Below the pieces are notes generated by a model. That model was given only the letters and a program-made list of their open reading frames with translations. It was not told the DNA's origin and ran no database searches. The position numbers and the translations under genes were made by a program. Below are positions 16,849 through 32,547 of a stretch of DNA of 64,000 nt, one piece after another; the stretch's first letter is position 1, and each line of letters opens with the position of its first letter. This DNA is from Selenomonadaceae bacterium (GTDB lineage Bacteria > Bacillota > Negativicutes > Selenomonadales > Selenomonadaceae): the NCBI GenBank assembly GCA_030523645.1, contig JAUNIB010000001.1, forward strand, positions 682,001 to 746,000, read 5' to 3'.

Positions 16849-19131
16849 TTATCTGAAATAATTACGCATAACCGCCACAAGTTTCTTCATATCAAAAGGT
16901 TTTGGGACATGCTCGTTCATGCCCGCATTTTTCGCCTTGATTACATCCTCGGACATTACATTGGCCGTCATAGCAAATATGGGAATCTGCTTCGCATACT
17001 CGGTATTCAGCTCCCGGATTCGCCGCGTTGCCTCATAGCCGTCCATCACCGGCATCTCCACATCCATGAATATGACATCGTACCAGCCCGGCTGCGACCC
17101 GGTGAACTTATCCACACAAACCTGACCGTTGTCGGCTGAATCTACCTGCATACCTGTCAGGGACAGCAGCTCCGTGGTGATTTCTCTGTTCAGCTCATTG
17201 TCCTCGACCAGCAGCGCCCTGATGTTGCTGAAGTCTGCATTCAGGGTATCTCCGTTTGCCTTTGCCTTCTCCTTGCCCAGAACTTCATTGAACAAGTGAC
17301 GAAGACCGGAGCGGTACAAAGGCTTGCTGATGATACCGTCCACACCGGCTGTCACAGCCTGTCTTTCCAGCTCCTCCGTATCGTAGGAGTAGGCCAGAAC
17401 AACCGGCTGATACTCACCCACGGCCTCCTGCATCTGCTTTGCCACCGCCATGCCGTCATTGCCCGGGATTTTCCAGTTTACTATGAGCGCACTGTAGTCA
17501 TCACGGCAGCCGTGATGCTCCTTTATCCTCTTTACAGCCTCCTCGGCATTGTCGACGAATTCGCCCTTGATACCCACCTGTCCGAGACTCTGCAGCATCT
17601 GCTCCGAATCCTCCATGCTTTCGTCGAGGATAAGGACATAGGTGCCTATCAGGTTTTCGTCCTTCGTCTCCACCTTCTCCGGCAGCTCCAAAAACAGATT
17701 GAAGTAAACCTTCGTACCGACCTGCGGGGTGCTGTCAATCTTAATCACACCGTTCATCATGGTGACGATATTCTGAGCGATTACCAGACCGAGACCCAGC
17801 CCGGCTCTGCCGCTCTTGACCGTATCTTCTCTGTCAAAGGGGTCAAAGACCTTCGCCAGCTGCTTCCGATCCATACCGACGCCATTGTCCTCTACGGTAA
17901 ATTCATAGCAGGCAAAGCCATCGTAGGCTGAGGAAGTCTCACCGATAGTAATGCTTATATTGCCGCCGTCGGGAGAATACTTCACCGCATTTCCCACCAC
18001 GATATCGAAGCACTGCTTTATCCGCTCCGCATCACCGAGGACAACATTATGGACAATATCCTTTACGGAGATTGCCAACCTTTGATTTTTCGTCCTCGCC
18101 ATAGCTCCGGCTTCATCGGAAAGATTTTCGATAAACTGACGGATAACAATATTTTCCGAGGCGGCATTCGTCCCGGAGTCTTCAACCTTGTCCATATCCA
18201 TGACTTCGTTGAACAGCTTCAGGATGCTCTGAGACGACTCCTTTATCTTCCGCAGGCAGTCCTCCACCCTCTCCGAATCATGAATATGCGCCCCGGCAAT
18301 AGTGGAAAGACCGATAATGGAATTCATCGGTGTCCGCATATCACGGCTTATCATTGCCAGGAATTCCCGCTTCGCCTCACCGGCTTTTCCGGCGGTATAG
18401 TAAGCATCCTTCATTGTATTGTATTCCCGGTCAAGCTCATCCCTCTGCTGCCGTATGACTTTGTTGTCAATTATCAGCATCTGGGTGACATTGAGCAGGA
18501 ACACGCAGAGAACAATAGTCATGCAGCCGATGGAATAATAAGGCGAATCGCTTTCGCCCCAGCTCAGGAAGCAGGACACCAGCGGCAAAAAGGATATACC
18601 AAGAGCATACCTGTACAGATTTTTCTCATCGCCGGTTTTCTTCTCAGCTGCCAGCAGCGCACTGATTATCAGATAAAGGATAGCCTGCATACCGAAAATG
18701 ACAGTACGCATAAAGCCGACATTGTAAACGGTACCCGGCCCGATGGTAAACACTTCGCCGGTAAAGGGATTTGCCGCCAGTATCACAAGCTGAACTATTG
18801 ATATGAGGCAGCCAACCTTATTGAGATAATTCCGCTCCGCCTCGGAGGCAAGATAGGTAGCGGTGTACTTCATCCACTTGTAGCAGACAATCACCGAAAA
18901 AGCGAAATACAAATAGGCACAGACCGTAAATAATGACACACTGCTGCCGTAGCCGCCGGCATAAGACAGCCCCCACAGGCAATCCACCACAGTGAAGCCG
19001 ATAGCCGACTGCAGGAACTTCTTAAACTGCCCCGCACCATTGTGGAACACCCGCAAATGGCGCATTCGTATATACAGCAGCAGGAGAAAAAAACAGCTGA
19101 AAACTGCCGCTGCGGAATAATAATTTCTCAA
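16849..19131 (-). CDS. Membrane hybrid histidine kinase with degenerate phosphorelay sites
   Basis: 760 residues. About seven hydrophobic segments fill residues 1-220 and there is no obvious periplasmic sensor domain. A HisKA-like region at about 235-310, an HATPase_c domain at about 345-470 and two receiver domains (about 480-610 and 635-755) follow. The ATPase boxes are intact: N box (VVGNAVKYS), VEDNGVGMD, FDPFDRED and GLGLGLVIAQN. However, the H box reads MISRDMRTPMNSIIG, with Arg263 where the phosphoacceptor His should be. The first receiver reads LIVNWKIPG, with Asn552 where the Asp should be. The second receiver keeps Asp690 in FMDVEMPVMDG. Starts at TTG with AAGGA upstream. No separate response regulator gene is next to it. 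Confidence 0.85.
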   Translation of the reverse strand: MRNYYSAAAVFSCFFLLLLYIRMRHLRVFHNGAGQFKKFLQSAIGFTVVDCLWGLSYAGGYGSSVSLFTVCAYLYFAFSVIVCYKWMKYTATYLASEAERNYLNKVGCLISIVQLVILAANPFTGEVFTIGPGTVYNVGFMRTVIFGMQAILYLIISALLAAEKKTGDEKNLYRYALGISFLPLVSCFLSWGESDSPYYSIGCMTIVLCVFLLNVTQMLIIDNKVIRQQRDELDREYNTMKDAYYTAGKAGEAKREFLAMISRDMRTPMNSIIGLSTIAGAHIHDSERVEDCLRKIKESSQSILKLFNEVMDMDKVEDSGTNAASENIVIRQFIENLSDEAGAMARTKNQRLAISVKDIVHNVVLGDAERIKQCFDIVVGNAVKYSPDGGNISITIGETSSAYDGFACYEFTVEDNGVGMDRKQLAKVFDPFDREDTVKSGRAGLGLGLVIAQNIVTMMNGVIKIDSTPQVGTKVYFNLFLELPEKVETKDENLIGTYVLILDESMEDSEQMLQSLGQVGIKGEFVDNAEEAVKRIKEHHGCRDDYSALIVNWKIPGNDGMAVAKQMQEAVGEYQPVVLAYSYDTEELERQAVTAGVDGIISKPLYRSGLRHLFNEVLGKEKAKANGDTLNADFSNIRALLVEDNELNREITTELLSLTGMQVDSADNGQVCVDKFTGSQPGWYDVIFMDVEMPVMDGYEATRRIRELNTEYAKQIPIFAMTANVMSEDVIKAKNAGMNEHVPKPFDMKKLVAVMRNYFR

Positions 19132-19236
19132 AATAATTCTTCCTTCTATGTGTAAACGGTGATATTAATCAGCGCTAATCAAATTCGTTGCATAACCGTT
19201 CATTATTTTAGCATTATTCAGAAAGGAAGTAAATAA

Positions 19237-19282
19237 AAAGGGTCTGTGAAAAAATGAACAATCATTTTTCACAGACCCTTTA
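19237..19282 (-). terminator. Long terminator downstream of hsdS (covarying family)
   Basis: Arms AAGGGTCTGTGAAAAAATGA and TCATTTTTCACAGACCCTT, with one unpaired A and a 4-nt loop. On the minus strand it is followed by TTTTTATTTAC. It should end the hsdRMS transcript before the histidine kinase. Confidence 0.75.
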
Positions 19283-19509: not shown

Positions 19510-20979
19510 TTACTGCTGGGCTTTCGCCAGAGTGTCGCAAAGCGGCAGCAACTGCTCCAGCTTCGCAACAATACGCTTCTGCTCGGCGAGAGGTGGGAGT
19601 GGTACAGTGTACTGTCTAAAAACTTTCAGTGAAACAAATGATTGAACTCCGCCCGAAGCTCCTTTTCTCATTCTTTCCTGAAAAAAATATAGTACCCAAA
19701 ACCAATACTTCATTCCGATTGTTGCTTTAATATATGGCTTAAATAAGGCTATATTTTTTATACAAAATTCCCTATTCTTTTTTACAATGACTGGATTTCC
19801 TATAGAGCCTATCATTGCAAATAGTATGTCGCCATCATCTACATTTGATCGAGAATTTATTATTTTAGCATCCTCTTCTGATATATATTTCACCTCATCA
19901 AAGCTCAGTTGTCCGCTACTAATATTTTTACTTGTAACTAATGGTATTCCAGTTGGGCAATATTTAGGTGTATCATGCGTTCCATCCCTGACATCAACGA
20001 CATTGCCCATTCTAACCCAACACCAACTTTCAGGAATTTCAAAAGGAATTTCGTCCTCTGCTATTTCCGGCAGAGGTTTTTCCTTTTTTATTACTCCGTC
20101 CTTCACCAGCTTGGCTTTCTCGGCTTGTATCTCCTTCAACAGGTCAGCGGCGTTGCCATCCTCGGGGCGCTGGTCGGTCAGCTTTCCCTCCACAGCCATT
20201 TGCAGCAGACTGTTTTTCAGCTTCCCGGGGAAAGCTTTGTTCAGCTCATGCAACTCATTGTAGGCTTTTTCGTAATCATCTACCAATGGAAGAATTTTTT
20301 CCAAACGGTCGACAATACGCTTTTGCTCGGCGAGTGTCGCTAACGGAACTAAAAGATTACACCACCCATCTTTGTTAATAATTGGTGTTGCTGTCCCCGT
20401 AGAATTTTCACGCAATTTCTTGTAGAAAAAGTCTGATTGTATGACACTGAATATATATTTACTTAGTGATAACAGTGGTTTAATAGCATTGATTTGCTGA
20501 TTGAATCCACATTTTCTATCAACAATTGCAACTTTACCAATTGACCCACCTATACACACTTGTACTATATCCTGATTATCCAATGCCCGACTATTAGCCA
20601 ATCCGGATTCTGTCAATCTTTTATCCGTATCATACTGTATAGTTCCAGAGCTTGATATGTTCCCTGGACCAATAAACGGATATTCCCCATCATAGTATTC
20701 TGAACAAGTTGTTGATGGTGTTTTTCCAGTAATGGTAATTCCAACTTCACCCAGTCTGCACCAGCACCAGCTTTTCGGCACCTCAAATGGAATCTCATCC
20801 TCTGCTATTTCCGGCAGAGGCTTTTCTTTTTTTATTACTCCGTCCTTCACCAGCTTGGCTTTCTCGGCTTGTATCTCCTTCAACAGGTCAGCGGCATTGC
20901 CGTCCTCGGGACGCTGCTCCGTCAGCTTGCCCTCGATAGCCATTTGCAGGATGCTGTTTCTCAGCTGCTCCGGTGTCAT
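19510..20979 (-). CDS. hsdS: Type I restriction-modification specificity subunit HsdS
   Basis: 489 residues with two target-recognition domains (about 70-230 and 320-460), each followed by a conserved helix carrying LAEQKRIV. TRD starts are marked by SWCWCRLGEV and SWCWVRMGNV. Residues 9-73 and 257-321 are almost identical repeats (SILQMAIEGKLTEQRPEDG... against SLLQMAVEGKLTDQRPEDG...), the central spacers of this HsdS subtype. The TRD-coding DNA is visibly more AT-rich than the repeats, as expected of exchanged recognition modules. Overlaps hsdM by 4 bp (ATGA). Confidence 0.93.
   Translation of the reverse strand: MTPEQLRNSILQMAIEGKLTEQRPEDGNAADLLKEIQAEKAKLVKDGVIKKEKPLPEIAEDEIPFEVPKSWCWCRLGEVGITITGKTPSTTCSEYYDGEYPFIGPGNISSSGTIQYDTDKRLTESGLANSRALDNQDIVQVCIGGSIGKVAIVDRKCGFNQQINAIKPLLSLSKYIFSVIQSDFFYKKLRENSTGTATPIINKDGWCNLLVPLATLAEQKRIVDRLEKILPLVDDYEKAYNELHELNKAFPGKLKNSLLQMAVEGKLTDQRPEDGNAADLLKEIQAEKAKLVKDGVIKKEKPLPEIAEDEIPFEIPESWCWVRMGNVVDVRDGTHDTPKYCPTGIPLVTSKNISSGQLSFDEVKYISEEDAKIINSRSNVDDGDILFAMIGSIGNPVIVKKNREFCIKNIALFKPYIKATIGMKYWFWVLYFFQERMRKGASGGVQSFVSLKVFRQYTVPLPPLAEQKRIVAKLEQLLPLCDTLAKAQQ
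20017..20211. repeat. hsdS internal direct repeat, copy 2
   Basis: Encodes residues 257-321 of HsdS. It is the partner of 20761-20955, displaced by exactly 744 bp, a multiple of three. The two share a 68-bp identical core at 20084-20151. Confidence 0.9.
20761..20955. repeat. hsdS internal direct repeat, copy 1
   Basis: Encodes residues 9-73 of HsdS. The identical 68-bp core is at 20828-20895. Recombination with the 20017-20211 copy would remove the first TRD without breaking the frame. Confidence 0.9.
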
Positions 20980-22475
20980 GCTTTTACCTCCAGCATAGCC
21001 TCGATAGCCGACAGCACATCGTCAATCTTCTTGTTGAGAGCTGTACGCTTGGCCTGATAGTCGGCAATCAGCTCATCCGGCGGCAGGATTTCTTCTTCCT
21101 CGTGAGGGAAGCCGCAGAGGTCAAGATTGTATCCACCGGCGACGATTTCCTCGGCGGTGAATTTCTTCGCCTTCGGCCAGTCCTCCACGGTGATTTCTTC
21201 CCGGTTGTTCCACCAGTCGATAACCGGCTGGAAATGCTCCAGCTTCATAGGCTTCGTCTTGGAGAAGTGCTTGTATCCCTCCGGCATATCGAGGCGATAG
21301 AACCAGACATTTTCCGTGGCGTGAGTGTTGTCGAAGAAAAGGATATTGGTGGTGATACTGGTATAGGGGGCAAAGACGCTGCCGGGCATACGGATGATGG
21401 TGTGGAGGTTGAAGTCAGCCAGCAGCTTCTTCTTGATACTGGTCTTGGCGTTGTCGTTGCCAAAGAGGAAGCCGTCAGGGAGAATGACCGCCGCCCTGCC
21501 CTTCCTTTTCAGTCGGTACATGATGACGGACATAAAGAGGTCGGCTGTCTCGCTGCTGGCCAAATCATCTGGGAAGTAGCCCTTGACGCTGGCATCCTCG
21601 TGACCGCCGTAGGGAGGATTCATCAGTACCACATCGAACTTGTCATCCTCGGTGTAGTCCAGCACATTTTTCAGCAGAGAATTTCCGTGATTGATATTGG
21701 GGTTTTCCATATCGTGAAGCAGCATATTGGTAATGCACAGGAGATATGGAAAAGGCTTCTTCTCTACCGCGTAGACGGAGCTGTCCGCTGCCGCATCGTC
21801 CCCGGTATTCACTATCTGTTTCCGCAGCTCATTCAGCCAGCTGGTGAGGAAGCCGCCGGTACCGCAGGCAAAGTCCGCCATCTTCTCCCCCAGCTTCGGC
21901 TGTATCATCTTGGCCATGAACTCGGTGACGGATCTCGGTGTATAGAACTCACCGGCAGAGCCGGCGGCCTGCAGCTCTTTCAGTATCGTTTCGTAGATTT
22001 CGCCGAAAGCATGACTCTCCTTTGTGTCCTCAAAGTCAATTTCGTTGACGACATTGATGACCTGACGGAGATAAACGCCATCCTTCATGTAGTTGTTGGC
22101 ATCGGCAAAAGCGGCCAGTACGATTGATTTCTTCAATGGTGTGTCGGCGTTGACCTTGATGCCCCTGATAGCTACATTACCGCTATTGTCCTTTGCATCT
22201 CTGCCCTTCAATACCGGGAAAAGGGTGTTATTGACAAACTCCAACAGCTTATCACCGGTAAGGGACTGGTCGGCTGCCCAGCTGCGCCAGCGACATTCTT
22301 CGGGGATGATGGACTCGTATTCGTCGTCGTCAAATTCCCAGTTTTCTTCCTTGGCATCGTAGACTTTTAGGAAGAGAATCCAGACCAGCTGCTCAATGCG
22401 CTGAGCATCGCCGCTGATACCGGCGTCCATCCGCATAATGTCTCTTATTCGCTTGACAAATCCTCCGATTGCCAT
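20976..22475 (-). CDS. hsdM: Type I restriction-modification DNA methyltransferase HsdM
   Basis: 499-residue adenine-N6 methyltransferase subunit. The N-terminal helical domain (HsdM_N) covers about 1-140. The SAM-binding motif I is FACGTGGF at 202-209 and the catalytic motif IV NPPY at 286-289. GAGGTGG within the end of hsdR is its SD. Two bases separate it from hsdR and it overlaps hsdS by four, so the three subunits are coexpressed. Confidence 0.95.
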   Translation of the reverse strand: MAIGGFVKRIRDIMRMDAGISGDAQRIEQLVWILFLKVYDAKEENWEFDDDEYESIIPEECRWRSWAADQSLTGDKLLEFVNNTLFPVLKGRDAKDNSGNVAIRGIKVNADTPLKKSIVLAAFADANNYMKDGVYLRQVINVVNEIDFEDTKESHAFGEIYETILKELQAAGSAGEFYTPRSVTEFMAKMIQPKLGEKMADFACGTGGFLTSWLNELRKQIVNTGDDAAADSSVYAVEKKPFPYLLCITNMLLHDMENPNINHGNSLLKNVLDYTEDDKFDVVLMNPPYGGHEDASVKGYFPDDLASSETADLFMSVIMYRLKRKGRAAVILPDGFLFGNDNAKTSIKKKLLADFNLHTIIRMPGSVFAPYTSITTNILFFDNTHATENVWFYRLDMPEGYKHFSKTKPMKLEHFQPVIDWWNNREEITVEDWPKAKKFTAEEIVAGGYNLDLCGFPHEEEEILPPDELIADYQAKRTALNKKIDDVLSAIEAMLEVKA

Positions 22476-22477
22476 GG

Positions 22478-24823
22478 TCAGACCACCTCATCCTCATATA
22501 AATGTTCTTTCAGCTCCAGCACGGCCTCTCTGTATTCCTGCTTGCCGCCGAAGAGCTTGGCTATCCGGCTGGGCTGACCGAACTTAGTAAAGTCTGCCAG
22601 CTTCAGCACTTCTGTCTTTTCGATTTCCTTAATACCCAAATCCTTGTACTTTTCCAAGAGGGTTTCCAGCACTTCTTTCGCAGCACCGCTGTACTTGCTG
22701 AAGAAGTCATTTTTCTTTGTGTTGTTCGCCCTTTCCCTTCTGGTGAGGGCTTTCTTGCCGTAAGCGATGTAGCAGATGAAGTCAAAGTCGTCCACATCGG
22801 CCATGCCCTGCTCAGCTTTCAGCTTGTCTATGTCAATACCGACATCCGCCAGATGTTCAGCAATGACGGCTTTTCGTTCTTCGCCTTTCCAGCGGCGGAT
22901 GAAGGCTTCCAATGAGGCACACTCGCCGATGATGTTCGCCTTGGTGTAGTCAATGATGTTTTCGTTGACCAGCAGCTTGCCGTTGGCATCGTAGACAGCA
23001 ACGCTCTCATTGACCACCACAGCCTTACCGCCCTCCGGTGTGACATAGTACACCGGCTTTTTCTCCGGCGGGTCGACAGGCTCAATCGGGTCATCGGGAA
23101 GCGGTTTTGTTCCTTTGCCATTACCCGGCTGAAAGCCGTCATCCTGCTCTACCGGCCCATCCCAATCCGGGTCGGCAAAAAGTGATGTGATATTGCGAAA
23201 GTCCATGACCATGAAGCTGAGCTTGCCTTCCTTCTCCCGCAGCCTCGTTCCCCGGCCGATAATCTGCTTGAAGGTGGTCATAGAGGAAATCATCTTGTCC
23301 AGCACTACCAGCTTAGTCATCTTGCAGTCGGCTCCGGTGGTAAGCAGCTCAGAGGTGGTGGCAATGACCGGGTATTCTGCCGCCACGGAGATGAAGTAGT
23401 CCAGCTTGCTCTTGCCGTAGACATCACTGCCGGTAATGCGTACTACATAGTCGGGATTTTCCTTCACCATGTCGGCGTTGCAGTTGACGAGAGCCTGTCT
23501 CATTCGCTCGGCGTGGTCTTCGGTGGCACAGAAGACGATAGTTTTCTGCATCCTGCCGGTCTGCTTCAGATAGTTCGTGACCGTCTGAGCTACCTGATTT
23601 ATTCTGTCTTGCAGAATAAGGTTGTAGTCGTAGTCACGATTGTTGTAAATCCTGTCCTCAATCTCGTTGCCGAAGTAGTCAAGCTGTCCGGCGGTAGGTC
23701 GCCAGCCGTCGGATATGTCCATTGTTACCTTGATGACTTTGAACGGAGCAAGGAAGCCGTCGTTGATGCCGGAGTTAAGGCTGTAGGTGTAGAGTGGCTC
23801 CCCAAAGTAATCAATGTTGGAAATGTATTTTGTTTCTTTCGGGGTGGCGGTCATACCTATCTGGGTGGCACACTTGAAATACTCCAGCACTTTGCGCCAG
23901 CGGCTTTCTTCCTTGGCAGAGCCGCGATGACACTCGTCGACGATAATCAGGTCGAAGAAATCCGGCTGGAACCAGTCACGGAAATGCTCCTCATCCTTGT
24001 CTCCTACCATCTGCTGATAGAGGGCAAAGTATACCTCATAGGCACCGATGGTGGTCTTGTCGTCCTTGGCAAAATTTACCTTGTGAATCGTCTTGCTGAG
24101 GGGCGCGAAATCCTGCTGAATGGTCTGGTCAACCAGCATATTTCTGTCCGCAAGGTAGAGGACTTTCTTCTTCATGCCGGACTGGAGCAGACGATAGACA
24201 ATCTGAAAGGCCGTATAGGTCTTGCCTGTACCGGTAGCCATGACGAGGAGCAGTCTGTCCTGTCCCCGGGCAATGGCTTCTACCGTCCTATTGATAGCGA
24301 TACGCTGATAGTATCGTGGAGAGTTTGCCCCCATGCCGGAGTAGTAGGGCTGATTGATGATGTCCTCTTCTTCCGGGGTTATACCGGCACCGCCGTTTGA
24401 TTCCTGCTTGAAGCGACGGACAAGCTCGGCTTCATCGGGGAATTCGTCGAGAGACAGATGACGCTCTTTGCCGGTGAGGAAGTCATGCTCCACGAAGCCG
24501 TCACCGTTGGAGCTGTAGGCAAATGGCAAGTCAAGCATAACGGCGTAGGTCATTGCCTGCTGCAAGCCGTAACCGACAGAGTGATTGTGGTCTTTTGCTT
24601 CGACGACAGCAATAGGTTTGTTGTCGGTCAGGTAGATGAGATAGTCAGCCCGCTTTGGCTTCTCCCTCGCCGCCATGTTACCTTTGATATTTATCCGTCC
24701 GTCGGTAATCTTTGTCTCCATGGTGATGTAGTGAGAGTCCCACTTTGCTGTGATTGCCGGAGTGATGTATTGCAGTTTAATGTCTTCTTCGGACATTTGG
24801 TTAATATTTAATACAGCAGCCAT
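22478..24823 (-). CDS. hsdR: Type I restriction endonuclease subunit HsdR
   Basis: 781-residue translocating endonuclease. The PD-(D/E)xK nuclease site is visible as Asp60 ... Glu75-Ala-Lys77 (RADYLIYL / VVEAKDH). The SF2 motor has motif I MATGTGKT, the DEAH-type box DECH, motif III MTATP and motif VI QIIGRGTRLR. The C-terminal 150 residues form the HsdM-binding helical region. Start: ATG 24823, with GGAG nine bases upstream; a longer frame to 24892 lacks an RBS. First gene of hsdRMS. Confidence 0.94.
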   Translation of the reverse strand: MAAVLNINQMSEEDIKLQYITPAITAKWDSHYITMETKITDGRINIKGNMAAREKPKRADYLIYLTDNKPIAVVEAKDHNHSVGYGLQQAMTYAVMLDLPFAYSSNGDGFVEHDFLTGKERHLSLDEFPDEAELVRRFKQESNGGAGITPEEEDIINQPYYSGMGANSPRYYQRIAINRTVEAIARGQDRLLLVMATGTGKTYTAFQIVYRLLQSGMKKKVLYLADRNMLVDQTIQQDFAPLSKTIHKVNFAKDDKTTIGAYEVYFALYQQMVGDKDEEHFRDWFQPDFFDLIIVDECHRGSAKEESRWRKVLEYFKCATQIGMTATPKETKYISNIDYFGEPLYTYSLNSGINDGFLAPFKVIKVTMDISDGWRPTAGQLDYFGNEIEDRIYNNRDYDYNLILQDRINQVAQTVTNYLKQTGRMQKTIVFCATEDHAERMRQALVNCNADMVKENPDYVVRITGSDVYGKSKLDYFISVAAEYPVIATTSELLTTGADCKMTKLVVLDKMISSMTTFKQIIGRGTRLREKEGKLSFMVMDFRNITSLFADPDWDGPVEQDDGFQPGNGKGTKPLPDDPIEPVDPPEKKPVYYVTPEGGKAVVVNESVAVYDANGKLLVNENIIDYTKANIIGECASLEAFIRRWKGEERKAVIAEHLADVGIDIDKLKAEQGMADVDDFDFICYIAYGKKALTRRERANNTKKNDFFSKYSGAAKEVLETLLEKYKDLGIKEIEKTEVLKLADFTKFGQPSRIAKLFGGKQEYREAVLELKEHLYEDEVV

Positions 24824-24981
24824 TGTAATCCGCTCCAAGTTAGTAATCAGCCTTTGTCTTCGTTGATTGTTATATGTCTTAAATTTTACCAATGATTGAT
24901 GGGAATGTCTACTTTTGAAAGAGTAGGTTTATGTACAGAGAGGAAGTTTTTTCTGTCATCCTGCTTTCAAATGCTGTATTT

Positions 24982-25227: not shown

Positions 25228-25965
25228 TTACATTCTCTCTTTCAGCATATCCGCTGCGGCCAGCAGACCGGCTATCATTGCTGACGGTCTGGGGGGACAG
25301 CCGGGTACGCAGATGTCTACCGGCACCACCTTGTCGGCGGCTCCTACTATGGCATAGCTTTCGCCGTAGGTGCTGCCGCCGGCGGCACAGGCACCGCAGG
25401 CCATGACAAGTCTAGGCTCAGGCATTGCTTCATAGGTCATTCGCAGTGCCTGCTCCAGATTTCTTGTTACCACACCGGTGACCATCAGGAGGTCGGCATG
25501 ACGGGGGCTGGCTACGAAGTGAACGCCGTAGCGGGCCAAGTCATACATTGGGCCGCCAAGCGCGCCCATCTCAAAGTCACAGCCGTTGCAGCTTCCGGCA
25601 TCAAGATGGCGGACATGAAGGCTGCGGCCCAGCTTCTGCTTCAGCACATCGGCTGTAATCTCTGCTCCCACAGCAGTGATGAAGGGCATGGCATCATCAC
25701 TGCTGTGGGAAAGAGCGGTGTCACCCATGGACATTGCTTTCTCAACACAGCGTCCGCAGAAAATGCACTTGCTGTAATCTATCTCGCAGTCGTCCCCGGC
25801 AGCATTTATCCGGAATGCTCCTACCGGGCATACACCGGCACATTCCTTCAGGCAGCCGGCAGATGGACAACCCTTCAGCTGTCCTCTGTACCGCTCACTG
25901 CCGGTAAGGCTGATTTCCTCTGTGGCAATTTTATCGTGAAAGAGTCGTTCTAATACCTTAAACAT
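25228..25965 (-). CDS. hyfI: Hydrogenase-4 HyfH-HyfI fusion: ferredoxin domain plus small subunit
   Basis: 245 residues that combine two usually separate subunits. Residues 30-80 are a ferredoxin-like domain with Cys33, 38, 42, 46 and Cys67, 70, 73; the eighth canonical Cys is missing, although Cys60 could substitute. Residues 115-245 are the HyfI/HycG/NuoB-like small subunit, with a proximal 4Fe-4S site formed by Cys126 and Cys129 (GSCNGCD), a Cys in ACGAC and Cys223 in VPGCPPRP. It relays electrons from a soluble carrier to the NiFe subunit. Last gene of the operon; six bases separate it from hyfG. Confidence 0.88.
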   Translation of the reverse strand: MFKVLERLFHDKIATEEISLTGSERYRGQLKGCPSAGCLKECAGVCPVGAFRINAAGDDCEIDYSKCIFCGRCVEKAMSMGDTALSHSSDDAMPFITAVGAEITADVLKQKLGRSLHVRHLDAGSCNGCDFEMGALGGPMYDLARYGVHFVASPRHADLLMVTGVVTRNLEQALRMTYEAMPEPRLVMACGACAAGGSTYGESYAIVGAADKVVPVDICVPGCPPRPSAMIAGLLAAADMLKERM

Positions 25966-25971
25966 GATTAT

Positions 25972-27495
25972 TTACCTATCAATGCAAGCATAGCAAAGCT
26001 CAAAGCTCTTGTTAATCAGCGGAAAATCGGGAATGATATCGCCCTGAACGGCAATTGTCAGAGCCGGCCAGTTGGGATAAGAAGCACTGCGGATAAATAC
26101 CCTGTCGATAGCTCCTGCTTCATCCAGCGCCACATACCAGAGGTTGCTGCCTCTGGCTGACTCGCTGATGCCGTATGCTTCACCGGCCTTGTACTCCACG
26201 GGAGCAATCAGCTCTCCGCCGTTCTCCTTCAGCATTTCCGTCAGCTGACGAACCATGGCGAAGGACTCCTCCAGCTCGTCAAAACGCTGCTTCAGCCTGG
26301 CTGCCACATCACCGCTGGTCTGAGTCCGCACCTTGAAATCAAGTGAGCTGTATACGCCGTAGTCAAAATCCTTCCGGCTGTCGTGAGCATAGCCGCTGGC
26401 TCTTGCTCCGACGCCCACCATAGCCAGATCCTTGGCCGTCTGCAGGCGGACAACGCCGGTGGTGTTGATGCGGTTCTGGAAGTTCTCCTGCTGGGCAAAG
26501 AGGACGGCCATATCATTTACGCCGTTCTCTGTCTTGTCAATAAGCGTCAGGATGTCCTGAGCCAGCTCCGGAGTAATATCCATAGCAACGCCGCCGGGAA
26601 CAATCATCCCGCGGAGGAAGCGGTTTCCCGCTATCCGCTCCTGCAGTCGCATCAAGGCTTCCTTCAGCCGCGCACCAAGGCTGATGGCCGGCTGGAAGCC
26701 TACACCGGCAGGAATATTGCCGATGTCGCCTACATGATTTGTTATACGCTCTATCTCAGACAGGAGGGTACGGATAATCTCAGCCCGCTTTGGAACCTTA
26801 ACTCCGCATATCTTCTCAACGGCCTGACAGAAGCTCCAGGTATTCGCAATACTGCAGGCTCCGCAGACGCGCTCAGCCATGGGGAGCGCCCGCTGGGGAT
26901 TCATCCCCTCCATGGACTTCTCTATGCCGCGGTGAGTGAAGAACAGCTTTGCATCCAGCTGTAGCATCGACTCACCGGCCTGACTGAATCGAAAATGTCC
27001 CGGCTCGATGATACCGGCATGGATGGGGCCGACCGGAACCTGAAACAGTCCCTCGCCCTTTGCCGCAGCTATGGGGAATTCCCGCTGTCCCCTTACCTGC
27101 TGAGTCTTGCTGACACTCTTTCTGAGCGGGTGATAGCCCTCCGGGAAGCTCTCATGGAGAACAAGCGAGCGAAGGTCAGGATGTCCCTCCGGGACAATCC
27201 CGAACATATCATTAATTTCCCGCTCGTACCAGACGGCACCGGGGATTATTTTCGTAAGGGAAGGATAGCTCAGCTCACCCTCCGGGTCAAATACTGCCTT
27301 CACAGTATCAAAGGCGTGCTTTTCGGGATTTTCAAAGACTGCAAAGACTGCATAGCCGCCGCCGTTGTTCGTCTCGTCTCTGCCGAACATCGCCGTGAGG
27401 GCATGGCGACCGCCGTCGGAGATAATATTGGCTCGTCCCCGAAGCTCCTCCGGCTTCACTGTGAGCATTACGCCGCCGGAAAGAAATTTATTCAT
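25972..27495 (-). CDS. hyfG: Hydrogenase-4 large (NiFe) subunit HyfG/HycE-like
   Basis: 507 residues with a NuoC-like domain (about 1-135) fused to the NuoD/NiFe large-subunit domain, as in HycE and HyfG. The NiFe ligands are all present: Cys211 and Cys214 in RVCGACS, and Cys501 and Cys504 in ELCYAC. The C-terminal motif lacks the common Asp-Pro of DPCxxC. The protein ends three residues later (IDR), so there is no cleavable C-terminal extension. E. coli HycE is made with a 32-residue extension that HycI removes just after this Arg. Its ATG overlaps the hyfF stop by one base. Confidence 0.92.
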   Translation of the reverse strand: MNKFLSGGVMLTVKPEELRGRANIISDGGRHALTAMFGRDETNNGGGYAVFAVFENPEKHAFDTVKAVFDPEGELSYPSLTKIIPGAVWYEREINDMFGIVPEGHPDLRSLVLHESFPEGYHPLRKSVSKTQQVRGQREFPIAAAKGEGLFQVPVGPIHAGIIEPGHFRFSQAGESMLQLDAKLFFTHRGIEKSMEGMNPQRALPMAERVCGACSIANTWSFCQAVEKICGVKVPKRAEIIRTLLSEIERITNHVGDIGNIPAGVGFQPAISLGARLKEALMRLQERIAGNRFLRGMIVPGGVAMDITPELAQDILTLIDKTENGVNDMAVLFAQQENFQNRINTTGVVRLQTAKDLAMVGVGARASGYAHDSRKDFDYGVYSSLDFKVRTQTSGDVAARLKQRFDELEESFAMVRQLTEMLKENGGELIAPVEYKAGEAYGISESARGSNLWYVALDEAGAIDRVFIRSASYPNWPALTIAVQGDIIPDFPLINKSFELCYACIDR

Positions 27496-28997
27496 TACAG
27501 CACACCTCCCATGACAATCTTAACTGACTCCTGAAGAATCGGCCCCAGGAAAGGAAGCTCATGAATCGTGGCACTGATGGCACCGGACAGAATCAGCAGA
27601 GCGAAGATTGCCGCCGTGTCCATGATACCCATAAGCTCACCGGCGGATTTTCTGGCCGGCTGACCGCCAAGCATACGCATGGCGTGGTACAGAATACCGA
27701 TAACGATACCGGCCAGCAGCATGAGTGCCAGTATGCCCCGCCACATGGTACCGGAGGCAAACAGGCCGGCGACGATATGGAATTTACTGAAGAATACACC
27801 AATCGGCGGCATACCCAGTATACCGGCAATGCCTAGCAGCCAGACGATGGCCGTCCGGGGAGACTGCTTCAGCATACCGTGAATACGCATCATATTCTTG
27901 GTGGAATAGGTTTCCATGATAGTACCGGCGGTGTAGAACAGCGCATACTTGACCAAAGCATGATTAAGCATGTGCAGGAGGCCGGCCTCTACTGCCGATG
28001 GAAGGAAAATACCGAGACCAACAGCCATAAGACCGAAGTTTTCCATGGAGGAATATGCCAGCATACGCTTAATATCGCGCTGAACAACCACGAAAGGTAC
28101 CGCAAGGCCGATGGTAAGAATACCGAAGCCGACGCAGATACCGCTGATGAAGCCGACACCAACCGTCGGCATCAGAATAACGATGTTGCGGAGCAGTACA
28201 TAAATGGCGCAGATACAGAGGGAGCCGGAGAGAAGTCCGCTGGTGAGAGCCGGTGACTCGGAATGAGCATCCGGCAGCCATGCGTGCATGGGAGCCAGAC
28301 CGACCTTGGTACCGTAACCGACAAACAGGAAGCAGAAGGCAATCTTGGCCAGCGCCGGATTCAGCTCCTGAGCGTGAGCGGTGAGGAACAGCCAATCGAG
28401 CGGCATATCCTGCCCTACGGCCTGCAGCTGTGCATAGTAGACGAGGATTGTTCCCAACAGCGCCAGGCAGATACCAACGGTACATACCATTACATATTTC
28501 CAGGCTGCTTCAAGGGAAGTCTTGGTGAACTTAAAGGCTACCAGCAGAGCCGACACGAGAGTGGTGGCCTCAATAGTAACCCACATAAGACCGAGGTTGT
28601 TTACCAGTACCACCAGCAGCATTGTCCAGACGAAAATGTGGGACAGCGCATAAAAGCGGCCTTCAAGATAGCTGAAGCGGCGGAGATAACCGTAGCGGAT
28701 ATTGGTATCACGGTCGAGGTAAGCCTCTGCGGTAAAGGCAAAAGCCAGATACAGCAGGGTGACGATAATCATCATCCACAGGCTGAGAGCATCAAGGAAC
28801 AAATATGTTCCCTGATAGGGCTGTGCCGGGTCGAAGACCATCATAATCCGGAAGACTGCTGCACCCACCGCTACAGCCGACAGGCGGCTGAGATGATGGA
28901 GAAGAGTCTTACCGAAGAGATTCGATACTGCAAGAATGCTGAAGACAATCGGCACACCCAGTACCACATAGAGAAGCTGACTGATTGAAAATTCCAT
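27495..28997 (-). CDS. hyfF: Hydrogenase-4 membrane subunit HyfF (antiporter-like)
   Basis: 500-residue NuoN/NuoM/MrpD-like membrane subunit with about 14 helices. The TM5 glutamate is in MWVTIEATTL and the TM7 lysine in GTKVGLAPMHAWLPDAH; TM8 and TM12 carry the HALVKYALF-type segment. These residues form the proton channel that couples electron flow to ion pumping. Lies between hyfE and hyfG with a 4-bp gap and a 1-bp overlap. Confidence 0.9.
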   Translation of the reverse strand: MEFSISQLLYVVLGVPIVFSILAVSNLFGKTLLHHLSRLSAVAVGAAVFRIMMVFDPAQPYQGTYLFLDALSLWMMIIVTLLYLAFAFTAEAYLDRDTNIRYGYLRRFSYLEGRFYALSHIFVWTMLLVVLVNNLGLMWVTIEATTLVSALLVAFKFTKTSLEAAWKYVMVCTVGICLALLGTILVYYAQLQAVGQDMPLDWLFLTAHAQELNPALAKIAFCFLFVGYGTKVGLAPMHAWLPDAHSESPALTSGLLSGSLCICAIYVLLRNIVILMPTVGVGFISGICVGFGILTIGLAVPFVVVQRDIKRMLAYSSMENFGLMAVGLGIFLPSAVEAGLLHMLNHALVKYALFYTAGTIMETYSTKNMMRIHGMLKQSPRTAIVWLLGIAGILGMPPIGVFFSKFHIVAGLFASGTMWRGILALMLLAGIVIGILYHAMRMLGGQPARKSAGELMGIMDTAAIFALLILSGAISATIHELPFLGPILQESVKIVMGGVL

Positions 28998-29001
28998 TGC
29001 C

Positions 29002-29634
29002 TTACCCTTTCAACTTTCTCATTACACCGGTATCGGTGGTCATGAAGGAGAGGCGCATACGGCCGGTGAGGATAACCAGCACCACCACAGCGATAAGCAC
29101 ATCGAGAAATACGCCAAGCTCCACAATAAGCGGCAGGCCCTCGGTCATCAGCAGGCCGAAGAAGTATATCCCGTTTTCAAGGGTGATAAGTCCCACAATC
29201 TGCATTATGGCCCGACGGCGCATAACGATGAGAGTAAGACCGGTCATAATCGTCAGGAATGTGGCGGCGAAAATATCACGGCCGATTGTTCCCGGCAGCA
29301 GACGGTCGGCAAGGATATATCCCATAACCAGGAAAAGGGCTGCCGCCAGAGAGGAGTAATTTACATTAATGTTGGAGTTTATCTCGCTGTCATCTTTAAT
29401 CTCGCCGATAAGTCTGAGGATGGCCCAAGGGATGAAAAGCACCTTGACACCGAGGGTCAGAAGACCGGGGAGGAAGGCATGAAATCCGCCGCCTCCGGCA
29501 GAAATGCCTACGATGACGCAGCTTCCGGCAATGATTGCCGACTGAACCGCCAGCAGGTAGGTAGCCCGATGAAGCTCCATTATTCTGGTCTGGAGGAAAA
29601 CCACCAGAATCAATAAGACTACTAAATATTCCAT
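29002..29634 (-). CDS. hyfE: Hydrogenase-4 membrane subunit HyfE (NuoK-like)
   Basis: 210 residues, seven predicted helices, typical HyfE length. The second half (MQIVGLITLENGIYFFGL) corresponds to the NuoK/MrpC core. It is unusually rich in positively charged loops (MRRRAIM). Follows hyfC after 18 bp and precedes hyfF by 4 bp. Confidence 0.88.
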   Translation of the reverse strand: MEYLVVLLILVVFLQTRIMELHRATYLLAVQSAIIAGSCVIVGISAGGGGFHAFLPGLLTLGVKVLFIPWAILRLIGEIKDDSEINSNINVNYSSLAAALFLVMGYILADRLLPGTIGRDIFAATFLTIMTGLTLIVMRRRAIMQIVGLITLENGIYFFGLLMTEGLPLIVELGVFLDVLIAVVVLVILTGRMRLSFMTTDTGVMRKLKG

Positions 29635-29652
29635 TATTTCAACCTCAATTAT

Positions 29653-30537
29653 TTACTGAGCAATAACTGCGACAGCCAGCAGAAGAACAGCGGCAGAAAG
29701 GAAAATGCGTACCTTGAAAAGCCGCATCTTGTTGTTCAGTGTCTCCACAACACCTATCAGCACCGCTCCCATAAGGGCTTTCAGCAGAACAGGAATATCA
29801 ATCGGCAGATACAGGGAGCCGAAGAGAACAAGGAAAACAAGCAGCTTCAGCATCGTGCCGAGGTGAATGAAGGTAAGCAGACGACCGGAGTATTCCAGCG
29901 TCATACATTCTTCAATCATGGTAAGCTCAAGATGAGTATCCGGGTTGTCAACCGGCAGTCGGCCGTTCTCAGCTACGATAACGAGGAAGAAAGCAAAGGC
30001 AGTAAGTACAGCCGGTACGGTAAAATAGAAGCTGTTGTAGTCAATAACCATGTTTGCCAGAGTCGTTGACCCATACCGGAGACTGTTTATGAGGATTGCC
30101 AGCATTACCGCCGGCTCTACCAGTACAGAGATATAGATTTCACGGCTGCCGCCCATACCGCCGAAGGCTGTGGCGGCATCCATAGAGGACAGGGTGAGGA
30201 AGAATCTTCCCAGCGCCATGATATAGACGAAAATGAAGGCATCGCCATAGCTGAAGCCGGTCTTCAGCAGACCCGGCACCATCATAGCGGCCATAAAGGC
30301 GGTAACGAAATAGATAATTGGAGCCAGCACAAAAACCTTGCCGGTATAAGGAGTCAGGATTGAGGGCTTCCGCCACCATTTCCACAGGTCAAAATATTCC
30401 TGAAATACGGAGGCTCCCTGCCGCTTCTGCATTCTTGCCTTCACCTTGTTGATGATGCCGCCGAACAGCGGGGCCAAAATCAGGAGAAGCAGACCCTGCA
30501 GGAGATTCGTACCTACAGACATTAATACGAAATCCAT
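29653..30537 (-). CDS. hyfC: Hydrogenase-4 membrane subunit HyfC (NuoH-like)
   Basis: 294-residue NuoH/HycD-like anchor that connects the soluble NiFe module to the membrane arm. Conserved loops are FGGIINKVKARMQKRQGASVFQEY near the N-terminus and the acidic ENGRLPVDNPDTHLELTMIEE loop, a hallmark of the family. Starts one base after the hyfB stop. Confidence 0.92.
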   Translation of the reverse strand: MDFVLMSVGTNLLQGLLLLILAPLFGGIINKVKARMQKRQGASVFQEYFDLWKWWRKPSILTPYTGKVFVLAPIIYFVTAFMAAMMVPGLLKTGFSYGDAFIFVYIMALGRFFLTLSSMDAATAFGGMGGSREIYISVLVEPAVMLAILINSLRYGSTTLANMVIDYNSFYFTVPAVLTAFAFFLVIVAENGRLPVDNPDTHLELTMIEECMTLEYSGRLLTFIHLGTMLKLLVFLVLFGSLYLPIDIPVLLKALMGAVLIGVVETLNNKMRLFKVRIFLSAAVLLLAVAVIAQ

Positions 30538-32547
30538 TTACATCACCCCCCACAGGAGAACTGCCACCATGGCAATCATGGTGTAGGCAATGTACAGACG
30601 GACACTGCCCTGCTGAATCATCAGCAGCGTTGAAGAAATCCTGACCATAAAATGCTCAATCGGATGATAGAGCCGGTCGGTAAAGCGATCCGGTACAAAA
30701 AGATTGAATCGCATAATGCGGCCGAAGTAATCGTGTTCCTTCTCCAGATAGACCTTCTCGCGGCGAGGCTTCAGGATGAAATCAAAGGCACGGCGCAGGG
30801 GCTTGGAGAAGCCGGTGGCCGAATACTGCTGACGGGCAGTAGGATATGTACCGCAGTTCCATGTAACTTCACTGCGAACAAGGGTATTACCCATAACAGA
30901 GAGATAGCAGAGCGCGAACAGTCCAAGACCGATGACCGCAAAAATAACCGGGCAATAAGCAGAAAGCTGATTGTAGAAATTGCCGGTGCCGCTCCACAGG
31001 AGAGCGAAATCAGTTGCCATCGGTACAACAGCACTGCCTCCGGTAAATACGCCTTCCATAGCGGCTACCAGCGGAGACGGGAAAATACCGACAGCAACAA
31101 TGAGGATTGCCTCCAGACCAAGAGCCAGTACCATGAAGAACGGCTGCTCGTGAGCCTTGTCGATAGCCTTGCTGCGGCAGCGACCAAGGAATACAACGCC
31201 GAACAGACGAACAAAGCAGCCAAGGGCCAAGGCTCCGGTAAGACCAAGAAGAATCAGACCGAAGACCACCAGCAGGCGAAGCTCGTCTCCGCCATTGACA
31301 GCCAAGGTGTAGAGACTCTGGAGAGTGAGCCACTCTCCTACCAGACCGCCGGTAAAGGGCAGCGAGGCCAGCGACATGGAGCCGATGAGGGTAAAGAAAG
31401 CAGTCCAGGGCATTTTCTTTGCCAGACCGCCCATGATTTCAATGTTCTTGCTGCCGGTGGCATGCATGACGCAGCCGGCACTCATGAACAGCAGGCACTT
31501 CATCAGGCTGTGGGTAAAGGCATGAACGAGAACAGCGGTGAAGGCTACCAAAGAAAGAGCTTCAAGTCCGAGATGCTTCAAAAGCATACCGCAGCCGAAG
31601 CCAGTGAATATGATACCCATATTTTCAACGGAGCTGTAGGCCAGGATACGCTTCATATCCTTTTCCATATTGGCATACAGGACACCAAGGAACGCCGAGA
31701 TAAGACCGACGGCCATTACCAGTCCGCCCTGCCAAAGAGTGTCAATGCCGATGAACTGGAAAACAAAGCGGCCAAATCCGTAGACTGCCACCTTCAGCAT
31801 AACGCCGCTCATGAGAGCGGACACATGGCTGGGTGCCGCCGGATGGGCATTGGGCAGCCAGACATGGAGCGGCATGAGGCCGGACTTCAGAGCGAAGCCG
31901 GCGAAAGCAAAGCAGAAAACAATGTGCTTCACATCGGCGGGAAGCTGATTGGTGCAGAAAGCAGTAAAGGAAAAGCTGCCTACACCGCTGCCGAGGATAT
32001 AGAAGGCCACCAGTATCGCAGCAGTACCAAGATGAGTCATTATCATGTACTGGTAGGCTGCACTGACGGTTTCCTTCTTGCTGCTCTCATGGTTGACCAA
32101 CAGGAACGAAACAAGCGCCATGATTTCCCAGGCAAGAATGAAGGTAAAGGCGTCTCCTGCCAGCAGTACCATGACCATGGACAGCAGGAACAGATTCCAT
32201 TCACCGGCGAGCGCCCGGAGGCCGTTGCCCCGATAGCCCTTGGCGTAGTCGAGACCGTACAGGCTGATGATGAATCCGGCCAGACCGGTTATCACCAGGA
32301 AGGGGGCGCTCCACAGGTCTGCATTCAGACTGTAGCTGCCCCAGCTGCCGGAAACCAGCCAGCCGTCCACCGACTCCAGTACGCCGGCGCTTATCAGGTA
32401 CATTCCCGACTTGTAGAGAAGGACGGCGCTGCCGGCAGCAGCGAGCATCATTCCCACATAGTGAGCCGCCATCTCAAGGCTCTTCGGCCAGAGAATGGTG
32501 GCAGTGCCCAGCAAGAACAATACCGGGCTGAGGAAAATTAAATCCAT
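30538..32547 (-). CDS. hyfB: Hydrogenase-4 membrane subunit HyfB (NuoL-like)
   Basis: 669 residues with about 16 helices, the large antiporter-like subunit. The channel Glu is in FILAWEIMALVSF and the Lys in ALKSGLMPLHVWLPNAH; another conserved His/Lys pair is in AFTHSLMKCLLF. The C-terminal third resembles the NuoL/HyfB extension. First gene of hyfBCEFGI, with GGAG upstream of the ATG. There is no hyfA, hyfD or formate dehydrogenase gene nearby, so the electron donor is open; ferredoxin or an unlinked formate dehydrogenase are both possible. Confidence 0.92.
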   Translation of the reverse strand: MDLIFLSPVLFLLGTATILWPKSLEMAAHYVGMMLAAAGSAVLLYKSGMYLISAGVLESVDGWLVSGSWGSYSLNADLWSAPFLVITGLAGFIISLYGLDYAKGYRGNGLRALAGEWNLFLLSMVMVLLAGDAFTFILAWEIMALVSFLLVNHESSKKETVSAAYQYMIMTHLGTAAILVAFYILGSGVGSFSFTAFCTNQLPADVKHIVFCFAFAGFALKSGLMPLHVWLPNAHPAAPSHVSALMSGVMLKVAVYGFGRFVFQFIGIDTLWQGGLVMAVGLISAFLGVLYANMEKDMKRILAYSSVENMGIIFTGFGCGMLLKHLGLEALSLVAFTAVLVHAFTHSLMKCLLFMSAGCVMHATGSKNIEIMGGLAKKMPWTAFFTLIGSMSLASLPFTGGLVGEWLTLQSLYTLAVNGGDELRLLVVFGLILLGLTGALALGCFVRLFGVVFLGRCRSKAIDKAHEQPFFMVLALGLEAILIVAVGIFPSPLVAAMEGVFTGGSAVVPMATDFALLWSGTGNFYNQLSAYCPVIFAVIGLGLFALCYLSVMGNTLVRSEVTWNCGTYPTARQQYSATGFSKPLRRAFDFILKPRREKVYLEKEHDYFGRIMRFNLFVPDRFTDRLYHPIEHFMVRISSTLLMIQQGSVRLYIAYTMIAMVAVLLWGVM

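Follow-up and report, generated by a model that had tools for sequence, protein, structure and literature searches.

What does a hybrid histidine kinase do once the His of its H box has been replaced? This question is raised by a gene in the window, the whole stretch of 64,000 nucleotides analyzed here, which comes from a 2.3-Mb genome of a rumen-associated Schwartzia lineage. The gene is read from the minus strand, beginning at a TTG start codon at 19131 that is preceded by a ribosome-binding-like GAAGGA, and its stop codon ends at 16849. The initial annotation had noted no frameshift in it; in agreement with this, all 760 codons are open, and neither this gene nor that of the sister species described below has a stop or frameshift. 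The gene, its domains, and the residues discussed are as follows.

16849-19131, minus strand: hybrid pseudo-histidine kinase gene, 760 codons plus stop, TTG start, open throughout
18454-19131, minus strand: N-terminal membrane module, residues 1-226, about 5-7 TM helices (hydropathy)
18181-18375, minus strand: HisKA (DHp) domain, residues 253-317 (Pfam PF00512)
18343-18345, minus strand: Arg263 (CGT) at the phosphoacceptor His position (codon read; same in the orthologue)
17689-18036, minus strand: HATPase_c (CA) domain, residues 366-481, with N, G1, F, and G2 boxes (Pfam PF02518; boxes kept in the orthologue)
17272-17640, minus strand: REC1, pseudo-receiver, residues about 498-620 (Pfam and alignment)
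17476-17478, minus strand: Asn552 (AAC) replacing the REC1 phosphoacceptor Asp (alignment)
17389-17391, minus strand: Tyr581 (TAC) replacing the REC1 Thr/Ser (alignment)
16870-17214, minus strand: REC2, complete receiver, residues 640-754, slowest-evolving domain, dN/dS about 0.04 (Pfam and alignment)
17062-17064, minus strand: Asp690 (GAT), intact REC2 phosphoacceptor (alignment; same in the orthologue)

Pfam matches to HisKA (residues 253-317; E = 1.3e-12), HATPase_c (residues 366-481; E = 2.7e-24), and two Response_reg stretches, all exceeding the curated cut-offs, give the protein the domain content of a HisKA hybrid histidine kinase. Four predicted ATP-binding boxes were recognized in the sequence (N, VVGNAVKYS; G1, DNGVGMD; F, FDPF; G2, GRAGLGLGL). 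The H box reads FLAMISRDMRTPMN, with Arg263 in place of the phosphoacceptor His, and Arg occupies this position in the sister species too. Reading of the codon confirmed the Arg reported earlier at 18343-18345, a CGT that differs from CAT by one transition; next to it, the R-D-x-x-T motif retains its Asp264 and Thr267. A HisKA kinase that lacks its His cannot autophosphorylate in the usual way. Since HisKA biochemistry needs the His, this protein is likewise predicted to be incapable of conventional autophosphorylation, and we infer that no phosphorelay can begin at the H box of this protein. A histidine kinase fold, as judged from sequence, combined with loss of the autophosphorylation residue is what characterizes a pseudo-histidine kinase (PMC12632262), and both features were found here. 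HisKA phosphatase activity, by comparison, does not strictly depend on the His (PMC12632262).

Next, conservation of the gene was examined. Among the genomes compared, the genus is otherwise represented only by Schwartzia sp. RGIG250, a MAG, and this sister species supplied the only close orthologue found (contig JAFNYY010000070.1, L024:302-2584), a protein of equal length that is 81% identical and begins at the same TTG. The gene order kinase-ftsH-sbcD-sbcC is the same in both genomes. The orthologue has Arg in the same CGT codon, Asn at codon 552 (AAC), and Tyr581. Only 47% of four-fold sites were identical between the two genes, showing that synonymous change is near saturation. The whole-gene dN/dS was 0.078, between that of ftsH (0.044) and that of sbcD (0.094), and the values by domain were 0.104 for HisKA, 0.090 for CA, 0.061 for REC1, and 0.036 for REC2, all of them rough ratios from one genome pair and a simple counting method with dS near saturation. 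Eleven of the 19 codons of the H box were unchanged, seven differed synonymously, and one carried a replacement (S271T); the G2, REC1-Thr, REC2 D, and REC2 T segments contained zero replacements. Compared with this single orthologue, both dN/dS and the codon pattern are those of a functional, non-decaying gene, with purifying selection on the dimerization domain, the ATP-binding domain, and REC2.

An alignment of orthologues had been proposed in the initial annotation as a check on the Arg and Asn. The single close orthologue, which shares both, supports a fixed and selected state of Arg263, and by the usual sequence criteria the kinase is real, conserved, and functional. One might suspect an error in sequencing or assembly, or a gene at the onset of decay, given that CGT is one transition from CAT, that REC1 is degenerate, and that one paralogue (L003, described below) looks decayed in the sister species. 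However, Arg, Asn, and Tyr581 are common to two species that were sequenced independently, the dN/dS is low, the H box has seven synonymous changes versus one replacement, and neither species shows a stop or frameshift, such that this explanation is hardly credible. A strain mutation or sequencing error had earlier been considered in the event that relatives carried His and Asp; with Arg and Asn in the only close orthologue, error is excluded within the limits of two genomes. The suggestion of early decay fared little better, being very unlikely in view of the codon pattern and the strong conservation of the ATP boxes and REC2.

The two receivers differ in their catalytic residues. REC1 has E504 at the second acidic position and retains K603, whereas Asn552 occupies an alignment column that is D in 20 of 27 sequences and Tyr581 a column that is T or S in 21 of 27. 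REC1 is therefore a receiver fold in which key phosphotransfer residues are missing, that is, a pseudo-receiver. The Asn552 reported in the initial annotation was confirmed, and the loss of the Thr/Ser had gone unmentioned there. Relatives with an intact His also have a REC1 that lacks the Asp (E in L027, I in L023, S in L003, and G in L025), and for this reason Asn552 is, judged from the alignment, an ordinary pseudo-receiver trait of the hybrid family that is not specifically tied to the Arg; the rare change is the Arg alone. Thus, the earlier proposal that a conserved Arg/Asn pair would mark a fixed function stands in that both residues are kept in the orthologue, but the pairing is not as remarkable as that suggests, and coevolution of the two residues is unsupported. 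In REC2, all catalytic residues (E643, D644, D690, T722, and K744) are kept, and the earlier description of the ATP-binding boxes and of the second receiver with its Asp690 as intact held in both species. REC2 is the slowest-evolving domain, which argues that it may still be phosphorylated although the protein has no donor His of its own.

To place the substitution in context, H boxes were compared across genomes. His was present in 16 of 16 other HisKA proteins found in the source genome. The Arg pattern S-R-[D/E]-x-R-T-P-M-N was matched by the source genome and Schwartzia sp. RGIG250 only among 189 Selenomonadaceae genomes, and by the source genome only in a 399-genome sample of the phylum, while the His form of the pattern gave 92 matches in 41 of the Selenomonadaceae genomes. 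A degenerate DNA pattern with codons beginning with A, G, or T at the His position had zero matches in 121 genomes of the family; these DNA patterns detect kinases ending in RTPMN and cover the codons at that position other than CAR, CCN, and CTN (Gln, Pro, and Leu). Within the scope of these patterns, the idea that Arg is a widespread variant was rejected.

In a tree of the DHp-to-REC2 region, the two Arg proteins pair with 100/100 support, their stem is 1.6 changes per site long, and their sister group (support, 96/88) consists of the His-bearing L002 and L022. L002, the closest paralogue, is a 1,034-residue protein encoded on contig C6 of the source genome, and L022 is its orthologue in the sister species. 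It has the same DHp-CA-REC1-REC2 order, but its His is intact (SHDLRTPMN), its REC1 Asp is present, and its N-terminal region is different. Because the motif was in no other genome scanned and the nearest paralogue has His, Arg probably arose once, on the long stem. Most simply, the protein would have arisen by duplication of, or separation from, an ancestor with His, lost the His while diverging rapidly, and been conserved thereafter; the placement in the tree fits divergence after duplication.

Several characterized proteins resemble the Schwartzia kinase in part. RetS of Pseudomonas aeruginosa has the core order DHp-CA-REC1-REC2, does not autophosphorylate, and takes phosphate from GacS on its REC2; it also dephosphorylates GacS-REC and inhibits GacS autophosphorylation (PMC5992135). 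The Schwartzia kinase shares with RetS a membrane sensor, the same core order with tandem receivers, a complete REC2 (by sequence, D690, T722, and K744), and the expectation that it does not phosphorylate itself, and both have a phosphatase-type motif with Thr at position +4 (HExxT in RetS, RDxxT here). In contrast, RetS has kept its His and has a degenerate HATPase domain, whereas the Schwartzia kinase has lost the His and kept the HATPase domain intact; the parallel is thus one of logic only, RetS having lost ATP binding. In addition, the REC1 Asp (D713) is kept in RetS and lost here, and the 7TMR-DISM sensor domains of RetS had no match in the Schwartzia kinase at Pfam E values up to 0.1.

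DivL of Caulobacter (PMC4211667) likewise combines a HisKA-type core with a replaced His (Tyr550) and is retained by selection. It differs in having Tyr rather than Arg, PAS domains rather than a polytopic membrane module, no tandem receivers, and weak ATP binding; the Schwartzia kinase does not show the DivL combination of Tyr for His, PAS domains, and a DivK partner, since it has Arg and gave no PAS match in Pfam. The ChrS pseudokinase of Corynebacterium glutamicum (PMC9491836) is a dead histidine kinase that affects signaling by its paralogue and forms heterodimers in two-hybrid assays, but its defect is a laboratory-evolved frameshift in the CA domain, and its His is kept. ShkA and CikA (reviewed in PMC12632262) also carry an internal pseudo-receiver within a hybrid kinase; in these proteins the His is kept and the pseudo-receivers regulate autophosphorylation, which is not expected in the Schwartzia kinase.

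We compared mechanisms by which such a protein could act; the initial annotation had listed an ATP-binding scaffold, a phosphatase, and a phosphate acceptor at the second receiver as candidate roles. The reading that we prefer, and to which we give about an even chance, is that of a RetS/DivL-like hybrid pseudokinase of the Schwartzia lineage that modulates partner kinases in the manner of RetS, with Asp690 possibly phosphorylated; its evidence base is a protein seen in two species, one of them a MAG. The membrane module would dictate which conformation the DHp/CA core adopts, and the core would heterodimerize with a His-bearing hybrid kinase and thereby damp or tune that kinase. Asp690 of REC2 would accept phosphate from the partner kinase or from an Hpt protein, as a sink or relay point, and the retained D264 and T267 would permit residual phosphatase action. 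The first candidate partner would be L002, the closest relative, which is kept in the sister species. Alternatively, the DHp/CA core could be a DivL-type scaffold that docks a response regulator and reads its phosphorylation and relays this state by contact, performing no phosphate chemistry itself, with Arg263 lying in the docking surface. DivL, with Tyr for His, has neither kinase nor phosphatase activity and senses DivK~P (PMC4211667), and the region around R263 is strongly conserved. However, DivL is a weak ATP binder without tandem receivers, and a pure scaffold would need neither the ATP boxes nor the REC2 that are conserved here; conservation of REC2 is the reason that RetS-like logic is preferred, and the scaffold is considered unlikely.

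The conserved ATP site leaves room for a different role, in which the protein is the kinase half of a heterodimer. Controlled by the protein's own membrane sensor, its CA domain would act in trans on the His of another hybrid kinase and so feed phosphate from ATP into the relay of that partner. All four ATP-binding boxes are conserved in both species, histidine kinase heterodimers occur (ChrS/HrrS; PMC9491836), and the source genome encodes a formally complementary partner. This partner, L003 (L003:1495-3513, contig C2), is a hybrid kinase with an intact His (SHDIRTPMN) that lacks the G1 and G2 boxes and has an HATPase_c match of only 34 bits; it is the only ATP-dead, His-intact hybrid in the genome. 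An Hpt gene (115 aa), the one stand-alone Hpt candidate of the genome, lies 26 nt upstream of it. In the sister species (L105, contig C121), however, Hpt is kept (89%), and the L003 orthologue lacks about residues 64-349, that is, the DHp domain with its His and most of the CA domain. A conserved reciprocal pair of the pseudokinase and L003, attractive in the source genome, is weakened accordingly, although the shortened orthologue could be an assembly error; there, the Hpt relay protein seems to persist while its kinase decays. Conservation of the ATP boxes might also reflect folding or nucleotide sensing, and we regard a kinase role in trans as rather improbable. Doubtful, too, is its further form, in which the protein would have kept the ATP domain, given up its own phosphoacceptor, and come to phosphorylate a partner His in a heterodimer as the mirror image of RetS; if true, this would be a natural split of a hybrid kinase in which the ATP half and the His half each depend on the other, a previously unknown way of wiring a two-component system. 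It is very improbable that another residue takes the phosphate, for example, Arg263 itself or either of the His residues, His282 and His284, with which the first DHp helix ends. Both orthologues retain these two His residues, but His282 is also found in many His-intact relatives and hence is not compensating, and the two residues lie 4-5 helix turns from the normal site. We know of no precedent for a noncanonical phosphoacceptor in place of the H-box His.

HisKA domains without the His make up 0.9% of the total, and receivers without the acceptor residue make up 2.0% (PMC12632262); few of these roughly 1 in 100 HisKA domains in sequence databases have been studied. The Schwartzia kinase is a rare, well-preserved addition to the class of pseudo-histidine kinases, a class that is itself already known. 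It offers a clean natural case, a hybrid kinase complete but for a single substitution that has been fixed since two species separated, with the closest paralogue, which has His, still present in the same genomes. The unusual points are the exchange of His for Arg with an intact ATP site and its fixation across a lineage of two species. No paper on an Arg-for-His hybrid kinase was found in a literature search conducted mostly outside subscription journals. As the reverse of RetS, the protein could be used to test why a pseudokinase retains its ATP domain, for trans-phosphorylation or only as a nucleotide-responsive regulator.

The N-terminal membrane module matched no Pfam family, and its close matches were from Schwartzia sp. 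RGIG250 only. An AlphaFold2 model gave low-confidence helices in this module, the model being poor overall (3-sequence alignment; mean pLDDT, 53; pTM, 0.28). Distant relatives (22-29% identity) in other Selenomonadaceae were mostly N termini of GGDEF proteins, and two were on His-bearing HisKA proteins; an unnamed membrane sensor module (L048-L064) is thus common to GGDEF proteins and a few hybrid kinases of the family.

The immediate surroundings of the gene include the following two features.

19205-19233, minus strand: promoter-like site TTTACT-17-TAAAAT, with TG before the second hexamer, also upstream of the gene in L024
14908-16788, minus strand: ftsH, 60 bp downstream of the kinase, order conserved in the sister species

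Promoter-like sites in the region were no more numerous than in shuffled sequences, and the site is a candidate lead only. Directly upstream of it, at 19238-19280, is a long inverted repeat (AAGGGTCTGTGAAAAA...TTTTTTCACAGACCCTT), also upstream in L024, that may be a terminator. Cotranscription of the kinase and ftsH is possible; ftsH is noted as a neighbor and not as a functional partner. No response regulator gene was identified adjoining the kinase gene.

A type I restriction-modification set (19510-24892, minus strand), comprising hsdS with two specificity domains, hsdM, and an ORF at 22478-24892 read as hsdR, sits between the kinase and a complex-I/group 4 hydrogenase-like cluster. On contig C104 of Schwartzia sp. 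RGIG250 (L065), the gene for the 20-kDa subunit is followed directly by the kinase start, and contig C43 carries upstream DNA like that of the window; the restriction system shows apparent presence/absence variation. The kinase start on C104 (9911-10144) is a second 5' pseudokinase fragment covering residues 1-78, with ∼89% DNA identity to the L024 copy, that is cut off by the end of the contig ahead of the H box and represents either another strain or a second copy. The hydrogenase-like cluster itself (25228-32547, minus strand) encodes the 20-kDa subunit, a fused 30/49-kDa subunit with a NiFe-hydrogenase match, and two antiporter-type membrane subunits.
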